Of a stretch of 29,528 nt of DNA, positions 290-22,193 are shown piece by piece; within the stretch, counting starts at the first letter, position 1; each line of letters starts with the position of its first letter. Source of the stretch: a virus. The notes beneath the pieces are model-generated. The model did not search any database and was not told where the DNA came from. It was given only the letters and a program-made list of their open reading frames with translations. The stretch lies in the IMG/VR virus record IMGVR_UViG_3300030060_007816, positions 1 through 29,528 of that record; one strand, written 5' to 3'. The position numbers and the translations under genes are program-made.

Positions 290-326
290 AAAAAAGTGGC
301 ACCCATTAGCCGGGGTGCCAGCGGCT
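290..326 (-). promoter_or_regulatory. Pseudoknot/terminator-like RNA element copy 1 (upstream of uvsX)
   Basis: Read on the minus strand, AGCCG (326-322) can pair with CGGCT (312-308), and GGCACCC (319-313) can pair with GGGTGCC (304-298). The two stems interlock as an H-type pseudoknot with a 2-nt first loop (CT), no base between the stems and a 3-nt AAT last loop. The 7-bp stem alone is followed by ACTTTTTT, so the same element can also act as an intrinsic terminator or attenuator. It starts five bases after the stop of the lipoprotein gene and ends 18 bases before the uvsX start, directly 5' of the AGGAGG. Two more copies occur at 447-481 and 771-804. Confidence 0.7.
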
Positions 327-330
327 GCAG

Positions 331-432
331 CTATTCTGCGGTGTCTTCAACAGCCGTATCGGATGCTGTATCCTCTTCCTTCTCACAACCCATGCAGAGT
401 GTGAGAGCGAGGATCGGTGCGATGAAACGCAT
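331..432 (-). CDS. Very short predicted lipoprotein (33 aa)
   Basis: The product is 33 residues: a short basic N-terminus, a hydrophobic stretch and Cys16 in the setting LTLCMGC, which resembles a signal peptidase II lipobox although the -3 residue is Cys rather than Leu. The mature part would be only 18 residues, strongly acidic and rich in Asp/Thr/Ala. The start at 432 has a clear Shine-Dalgarno (AAGGAG) and the gene lies between two copies of the pseudoknot-like element, so it looks like a deliberately spaced cistron. Small phage lipoproteins can block receptors or DNA entry of competing phages, but nothing here shows that role and it is offered only as a possibility. Acidic, Asp/Thr-rich lipoprotein tails also occur in bacterial surface proteins. 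The ORF is convincing by its RBS, signal and stop placement; the function is unknown. Confidence 0.6.
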   Translation of the reverse strand: MRFIAPILALTLCMGCEKEEDTASDTAVEDTAE

Positions 433-446
433 TGTTTTGTCTCCTT

Positions 447-481
447 AAAAGTAGCACCCTTTAGCCGGGGTGCTAGCGGCC
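447..481 (-). promoter_or_regulatory. Pseudoknot/terminator-like RNA element copy 2 (upstream of the lipoprotein gene)
   Basis: The minus strand carries GGCCG (481-477) pairing with CGGCT (467-463, one G-U pair), and AGCACCC (474-468) pairing with GGGTGCT (459-453). Relative to copy 1 the outer pair of the 7-bp stem has changed from G-C to A-U on both sides, a compensatory change that supports the stem being real. The first loop is CT and the last loop AAA. ACTTTT follows, then AAGGAG of the next gene. It lies four bases after the stop of the 84-residue gene. Confidence 0.7.
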
Positions 482-485
482 TTTG

Positions 486-740
486 CTACTCAGTTGTCGT
501 TTCAGTAGCAGTGGTTTCCGTTGTGGTTGTGGGGGAATTTGCTTCTTCTGTAGAAGTAGTAGCGGAAACCTCGACGGTGGTGGCCTCTTCCACTGTTTCG
601 ACGGCAGGCGTGACTTCACTCACTTCCTCCGCGGGTGGCTCGACTGTGCACTGCCCGTATGCTGTCGCAATAACAAGTGCTCCTGCTACCACGCTAACTT
701 GGACCTTCCAGCGGGCCAACAATGATCTTAACCATTCCAT
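486..740 (-). CDS. Small exported or membrane-anchored protein with Thr/Glu-rich tail (84 aa)
   Basis: I do not recognise a family. Seen: an N-terminus with Arg/Lys up to residue 12, one hydrophobic segment at about residues 13-29, then a low-complexity acidic tail dominated by Thr, Glu, Val and Ala. The A-T-A at residues 25-27 could be a signal peptidase I site; Cys31 is not in a good lipobox (Gln at -1). The protein is therefore either secreted or anchored with its tail in the periplasm. The start at 740 is preceded by AAGGAG, and a CTATAAA box lies 17 bases upstream of it. It sits between the SSB and lipoprotein genes, each boundary marked by the repeated pseudoknot-like element. A spanin or superinfection-exclusion role would fit the topology but is not supported by any motif. 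Confidence 0.7.
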   Translation of the reverse strand: MEWLRSLLARWKVQVSVVAGALVIATAYGQCTVEPPAEEVSEVTPAVETVEEATTVEVSATTSTEEANSPTTTTETTATETTTE

Positions 741-770
741 AATATAATCTCCTTTCTTTATAGAATATGC

Positions 771-804
771 GGCACCCTATTCCTAAGCCGGGGTGCCGGC
801 GGCT
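771..804 (-). promoter_or_regulatory. Pseudoknot-like RNA element copy 3 (downstream of the SSB gene)
   Basis: On the minus strand AGCCG (804-800) pairs with CGGCT (790-786) and GGCACCC (797-791) pairs with GGGTGCC (777-771). The first loop is CC, the stems abut, and the last loop is 8 nt. Unlike copies 1 and 2 it is followed by GCATATTC rather than a T-run, so it cannot be a standard intrinsic terminator. That favours a structural or protein-binding role. It lies 12 bases after the SSB stop codon and 30 bases before the next start. Confidence 0.65.
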
Positions 805-22070: not shown

Positions 22071-22193
22071 TTATGTTATTGCAATAACCCGCTTATTCAA
22101 TGATTGTACTCCAGCCACTTCGGAATACTCTCTTTCTAGGGCAGTGGCCTCGCCCAAGGAGAATAAAGTCAAGTTACAGTAAATAGTTTTCAT
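22071..22193 (-). CDS. Possible small protein (40 aa)
   Basis: An open frame of 40 codons fills most of the 257-base interval between the capsid gene and the next gene, and ends ten bases before that gene's AAGGAG. The sequence is non-repetitive (starts M-K-T-I-Y-C-N-L-T-L-F) with a mixed helical second half, and it is unlike a random frame in composition. Against it: no convincing Shine-Dalgarno (a GAG lies 13 bases upstream), and an ACTATTTA box overlaps codons 3-5. It could equally be a leader or untranslated region. No family recognised. Confidence 0.35.
   Translation of the reverse strand: MKTIYCNLTLFSLGEATALEREYSEVAGVQSLNKRVIAIT
22180..22187 (-). promoter_or_regulatory. ACTATTTA motif after the capsid terminator (candidate late promoter)
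   Basis: ACTATTTA on the minus strand, 60 bases after the terminator that follows the capsid gene and 131 bases before the next firm start. It overlaps the possible 40-residue ORF, so only one of the two readings may be right. Confidence 0.35.

Follow-up and report, generated by a model that had tools for sequence, protein, structure and literature searches.

Three near-identical RNA elements in successive gaps of the ssb-to-uvsX operon of a virus (IMG/VR record IMGVR_UViG_3300030060_007816, analysed over a 29,528-nucleotide stretch, the window) are real H-type pseudoknots, judging from the way both of their stems covary in related phages, where the knot appears to be under strong selection. 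The best explanation, to which we give a probability of about one half, is that each forms a knotted 3'-boundary element, in which a constant pseudoknot would serve as a 3' cap or hairpin stabiliser and the adjoining U-tract would set termination or read-through. The combination of a constant knot with an adjustable U-tract fits such an element better than it fits an operator of the downstream gene.

All of the features concerned lie on the minus strand. The ssb transcript seemingly starts from an extended -10 promoter (promoter-like TTGACA-N17-TACATT with TG before the -10, 1641-1669), which recurs in the relatives inspected. It is followed by a hairpin at the presumed 5' end of this transcript (1618-1638), whose sequence differs among relatives and whose pairs change together, with pairing retained. 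The ssb gene itself (817-1590, 257 aa) encodes a gp32-like protein of the zinc-binding type (PF08804, E 1.8e-13), and uvsX, of which only the 5' part is present (1-279) before it runs off the window, belongs to phrog_97 (RecA); both gene calls of the original prediction are therefore upheld. Between them lie an 84-aa gene (486-740), with a hydrophobic N-terminal segment and a Thr-rich tail, and a 33-aa lipoprotein-like gene (331-432, LCMGC). Pseudoknot 1 (771-804) follows ssb, pseudoknot 2 (453-481) begins 4 nt after the end of the 84-aa gene, and pseudoknot 3 (298-326) begins 4 nt after the end of the 33-aa gene, ahead of uvsX.

At each of these positions the parts occur in the predicted H-type order S1, L1, S2, S1', L3, S2', with an S1 of 5 bp, an S2 of 7-8 bp, an L1 of 1-2 nt, an L2 of 0 and an L3 of 8, 3 and 3 nt in the three copies. 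Pseudoknot 1 consists of S1 804-800/790-786 (AGCCG/CGGCU), L1 799-798, S2 797-791/777-771 (GGCACCC/GGGUGCC) and L3 785-778; pseudoknot 2 of S1 481-477/467-463 (GGCCG/CGGCU), L1 476-475, S2 474-468/459-453 (AGCACCC/GGGUGCU) and L3 462-460; and pseudoknot 3 of S1 326-322/312-308 (AGCCG/CGGCU), L1 321-320, S2 319-313/304-298 (GGCACCC/GGGUGCC) and L3 307-305. The AGCCG/CGGCT pairing that had been given for S1 thus holds for copies 1 and 3, but copy 2 opens with GGCCG, so that its outer S1 pair is G.U rather than A-U. As claimed, copy 2 has A-U in place of G-C at the outer end of S2. A 7-bp S2 with a 2-nt L1 is likewise found as described; in addition, a pair between the second base of L1 and the nucleotide just 3' of S2 is possible (C798-G770, U475-A452 and U320-A297 in copies 1 to 3), which extends S2 to 8 bp and leaves an L1 of 1 nt. 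That two copies have a T-run and one does not is also correct, but the runs had been assigned to the wrong elements: C-TTTTTT follows 326-298, before uvsX (U6 tract at 290-295, then an AGGAGG Shine-Dalgarno), C-TTTT follows 481-453, before the 33-aa gene (U4 tract at 447-450), and no run follows the ssb-proximal 804-771. The S2 hairpin and U-tract of pseudoknot 3 were also called as terminator-like, the sole such call among the window copies. When controls are scaled to the window, about 0.4 single knots with this score are expected in it by chance; three near-identical knots in three successive gaps, kept by relatives, are beyond chance, and the repetition of the knot inside the operon is borne out. 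No Rfam family reached its gathering score, and up to E 5 the search gave nothing relevant.

Evidence for the fold comes from SSB relatives, whose loci were chosen by SSB homology, together with a few pattern-found loci bearing the same SSB. Just 3' of the ssb stop, a strict finder places a knot in 101 of 113 relatives of at least 70% identity, vs 3 of 113 shuffled flanks. A relaxed finder places it in all relatives, a percentage that is biased towards structure because this finder demands pairing. When changes are counted on the SSB tree, the numbers of two-sided changes from one standard pair to another are 1, 2, 1 and 8 (about 12) for pairs 1-4 of S1 and 6, 9, 9, 4 and 3 (31 in total, with 0 breaks) for pairs 1-5 of S2; S1 pair 5 and S2 pairs 6-8 have weaker support. 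The covariation score is 0.323, vs 0.121 for shuffles and at most 0.10 for slid controls. Within the T4-like clade S2 varies freely while its pairing is kept (GGCAGAC, GGCACCC, GGCAGAG, GGCAUCC, GGUGCCC, GAGGCAU), and divergent variants, such as GAGGCAU/AUGCCUC in locus L443, retain the order of parts. These patterns, in which both stems covary, point to a pseudoknot rather than a plain hairpin, as had been proposed; the opposite pattern, a drifting S1 beside a preserved S2 and T-run, had been named beforehand as the one that would speak against the knot, and what is seen is covariation in S1 and drift in the T-run. Many copies could also form a competing hairpin, CUGG-CANN-CCGG, but the GGCAGAG clade has lost it and retains the knot.

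Among SSBs of the Microcystis phage Mel-JY01 type, which are about 30% identical to the window SSB, most lack the knot (9 of 78 flanks exceed the cut-off). Just after the SSB stop, the ssb-uvsX gap of loci of this type (L330, L334, L337, L342, L359, L370) holds a different structured stretch, GTGGGTGTTGAAG..AATAAAACCG..CCGGACACACCCAC, which is apparently another conserved RNA. In several more distant SSB genes (L344, L346, L372), plain strong terminators occupy the corresponding gap.

The U-tract behaves differently from the knot. At least 5 U in the 8 nt behind the stem are found in 70 of 93 ssb copies, where shuffles give a mean of 9.8 and a maximum of 18. A U-run of at least 4 is present in 20 of 21 copies without a gene within 60 nt vs 39 of 79 copies with one (Fisher p 1e-4), a p-value that is indicative only, because the thresholds used (10 nt, 60 nt, run of 4) were set after the sequences had been seen and because recombination may move the U-tract and the module together. 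In the CCCG clade the run is found in 14 of 14 copies with no gene behind and in 0 of 8 copies before uvsX. Of 15 context changes inferred on the SSB tree, 8 share their branch with a change in the U-tract, and each of these 8 goes the way that the link predicts; the link also holds in 11 of the 12 closest contrasting pairs. Near-identical SSBs carry different downstream modules, and the association could partly reflect recombination that swaps the U-tract and the downstream module as a unit. Of the copies that precede a gene, about half, knot 1 of the window included, have no U-run of 4, and several GC-rich phages retain the knot without any U-tract; because the knot persists in the absence of the tract, termination is not its sole role. 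Within that bound, the enrichment of the U-tract and its dependence on what follows lend backing, at the level of sequence, to the earlier alternative that the elements act as attenuators that graduate expression.

The knots are also placed consistently with respect to the gene before them. They mostly start 4-16 nt past the upstream stop (full range 3 to 28 nt), while the next start codon lies 8-130 nt beyond or is absent; what stands behind an ssb knot may be the 84-aa gene, uvsX, another gene, a promoter (directly behind in 6 of 100 copies) or a tRNA. At L099 and L161 a tRNA-like sequence starts directly behind the ssb knot. In 67 ssb-to-uvsX gaps, whose gene content is variable, knots remain at the joints: they follow 52 of 118 genes, ssb and many small genes among them, with most large inserted genes lacking one. 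In contigs of 131-203 kb the motif is found at the ssb locus, in 1-3 copies on the ssb strand, and one further pattern match in a 203-kb record (G011:111174) is without an S2 partner. This confinement argues that the motif is not a general terminator and rules out a generic terminator as the whole story. The terminator behind gp23 in the window (22288-22259) fits the knot geometry, but relatives have a plain hairpin there; 21 of 69 gp23 flanks scored with the loose finder, which is thus weak on strong hairpins. Behind this terminator, at about 22110-22180 on the minus strand, many relatives share a conserved noncoding stretch, ACTTGA..TTATTCTCCTTTGGGCGAGGCCACTGCCC.

The same knot occurs, with nearly the same sequence, in unrelated phages. 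An exact search with a 15-base core yielded many further contigs, whose sequence identity is partly by construction because the core itself seeded the search. A podovirus-like family was gathered by its gp11-like (tail-protein-like) protein alone, with query proteins from pattern-found loci, so that the family was entered via a knot-bearing member; upstream of the gp11-like gene, 51 of 51 distinct flanks have a knot, vs 0 of 51 shuffles, and the 2 flanks that scored on another pairing contain the same core. The consensus, CCCG-CU-GGCAGAC-CGGG-N4/5-GUCUGCC, is almost invariant while protein identity drops to 61%, a constancy that suggests recognition of the primary sequence, which a plain cap or terminator would not need. 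From the resemblance to T7 gp11, we tentatively take this family to be podoviral and the genes upstream of its knot to be capsid genes. A blastn search of the phage collection with two 33-nt probes gave no close copy. A weak blastn match led to an isolate, Xanthomonas phage XAJ2 (L629, 1498-1525), with a knot upstream of a recombinase and an SSB; its S1 is AAGCG/CGCUU, changed on both sides, and its S2 is GGCAGAC/GUCUGC. Bacterial genomes, scanned with the seeded core pattern, gave mainly a Bradyrhizobium RNA, a multicopy species (L253, L263, L264 and other genome loci) that opens with the knot core and continues with a CU-rich stretch and a terminator. At L264 (Parvibaculum) the RNA with the knot core adjoins a match to RF00519 (suhB/mmgR).

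Several other functions have to be weighed against a 3' boundary. One of the two functions suggested in the original prediction amounts to a translational operator, in which SSB would nucleate on the knot, spread over the A/U-rich stretch and block the downstream ribosome site. The window SSB is indeed of the gp32 family, and the order of parts, a knot and then an A/U-rich ribosome site, is that of T4 (PMC535899, PMC3014915). The knot, however, is 3' of ssb and close to the upstream stop; the ssb leaders inspected have a promoter and a plain hairpin, and finder matches in ssb upstream flanks (22 of 97) are mostly one shared TGGG..CCCA sequence from one clade. Moreover, a promoter or tRNA frequently lies behind the knot, which is equally conserved beside unrelated genes in the podovirus family and other phages, and SSB control of the downstream cistrons is accordingly very unlikely. 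Binding by a conserved protein of the host or the phage, one that recognises both sequence and fold (an antitermination or ribosomal protein, for instance), would explain the near-invariant podovirus consensus and the recurrence of the core beside ssb, in other phages and in the Bradyrhizobium RNA. It is nevertheless improbable, given that the S2 sequence is free to change in the T4-like clade if pairing is kept and that the apparent spread comes partly from the selection inherent in core-seeded scans.

A pure stability or processing element, which would block 3'-to-5' exonucleases, perhaps after an RNase E cut in the U-rich stretch, and would not terminate transcription, is unlikely. It would account for the retention of the knot where the U-tract is lost, and T4 gene 32 mRNA itself combines high stability with an RNase E cut close to the stop codon (PMC3014915); in addition, when the podovirus copy is compared with Rfam, the top match below threshold is to SorX (E 0.013), a 3'-UTR sRNA processed by RNase E (PMC6238624). 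What such an element leaves unexplained is the enrichment of the U-tract and its intactness where a new transcript starts behind. The variable gene content between constant knots, the different modules behind near-identical SSBs and the promoter behind some knots would suit a DNA-level module boundary, that is, short repeats enabling recombinational swaps of the genes between ssb and uvsX, as proposed for PeSLs. Recombination, however, requires identity and not pairing, while compensatory changes in both stems demand an RNA (or single-strand) fold, which makes this highly improbable. A knot placed 5-9 nt behind a UAG corresponds to the arrangement in known readthrough signals, and TAG is the most frequent stop here. 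Yet recoding of the stop codon directly upstream can be almost dismissed, since the spacing between stop and knot runs from 3 to 28 nt, all three stop types are present, and some copies have a second in-frame stop ahead of the knot. A ToxI-like antitoxin RNA was rejected because the copies are not tandem.

The 3'-boundary element is supported by the fold, as seen in covariation, by the position 3' of genes, and by the U-tract with its tie to what follows. Under this model, the mRNA would fold a compact coaxial H-type pseudoknot right behind the stops of ssb and the two small genes, and the knot would stabilise the S2 stem and cap the preceding coding region on its 3' side, halting 3'-to-5' decay or read-through. 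With an intact U-tract, the S2 stem and the tract would terminate transcription; with an interrupted one, RNA polymerase would continue into the next gene. In the window, ssb has a putative promoter of its own, and knot 1, with no U-run, would permit read-through, whereas knot 2 has a U4 and knot 3 a U6; with this series, we infer that expression would fall stepwise between ssb and uvsX. The knot would then probably cap and meter mRNA 3' ends and not act as an on/off switch of the next gene. If this reading of the U-tract is true, phages have a modular 3' end, with separate evolution of the fold and of the strength of termination; naturally occurring pairs whose main difference is the U-tract are already at hand. 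More broadly, and more doubtfully, the copies may belong to a phage RNA family absent from Rfam, a pseudoknot of 28-38 nt that unrelated lineages (T4-like, podovirus and others) would place at the 3' side of their mRNAs, where it would resist nucleases or bind a conserved factor while the adjacent U-tract is evolutionarily tuned for read-through.

Among known systems, T7 Tphi is an intrinsic (Rho-independent) terminator between capsid gene 10 and gene 11. Like such terminators, the knots provide a GC-rich stem after a stop and, in most copies, a U-tract, and the podovirus copies share with Tphi a position just upstream of a gp11-like gene; unlike them, the loop is bound into a covarying, conserved pseudoknot, which outlasts loss of the U-tract. 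SorX (RF02784) is an sRNA that RNase E releases from a 3'-UTR in Rhodobacter (PMC6238624). It resembles the phage knot in being a 3'-UTR structure whose first stem is similar and is followed by ACC, but SorX is released by RNase E in a host, and the podovirus copy scores 19.4 bits against a gathering score of 46.6 bits. PeSL cassettes of T4-like phages (Arbiol 2010; Comeau 2014) are stem-loop and early-promoter elements between shuffled small genes (cited in PMC4503421). Window-type knots may be comparable in that they, too, lie between shuffled genes. To our knowledge, PeSLs have not been described as pseudoknots. The nearest published repeated pseudoknots by Ssb genes are those of STAXI RNA (RF01728), in which a pseudoknot without known function is repeated two or three times (PMC2864571); STAXI is enterobacterial and tandem, with UUCG loops and repeats that are not separated by genes, unlike the window knots, and its Rfam model gave no match at the gathering score or up to E 5. 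The closest parallel in fold is the autoregulatory pseudoknot of T4, T2 and RB69, which lies in the gene 32 5' leader and is bound by gp32 (PMC535899, PMC3014915), and which a 2010 review considered to be perhaps the only viral pseudoknot in translational autoregulation (PMC3014915). Both are small H-type knots with coaxial stems, a link to a gp32-family SSB and an A/U-rich ribosome site behind; the window-type knot, however, is found 3' of ssb instead of in its 5' leader, is repeated, and has counterparts beside unrelated genes. The same kind of fold is thus tied to SSB genes at the opposite end of the message, with strong covariation and at more than 100 environmental phage loci.
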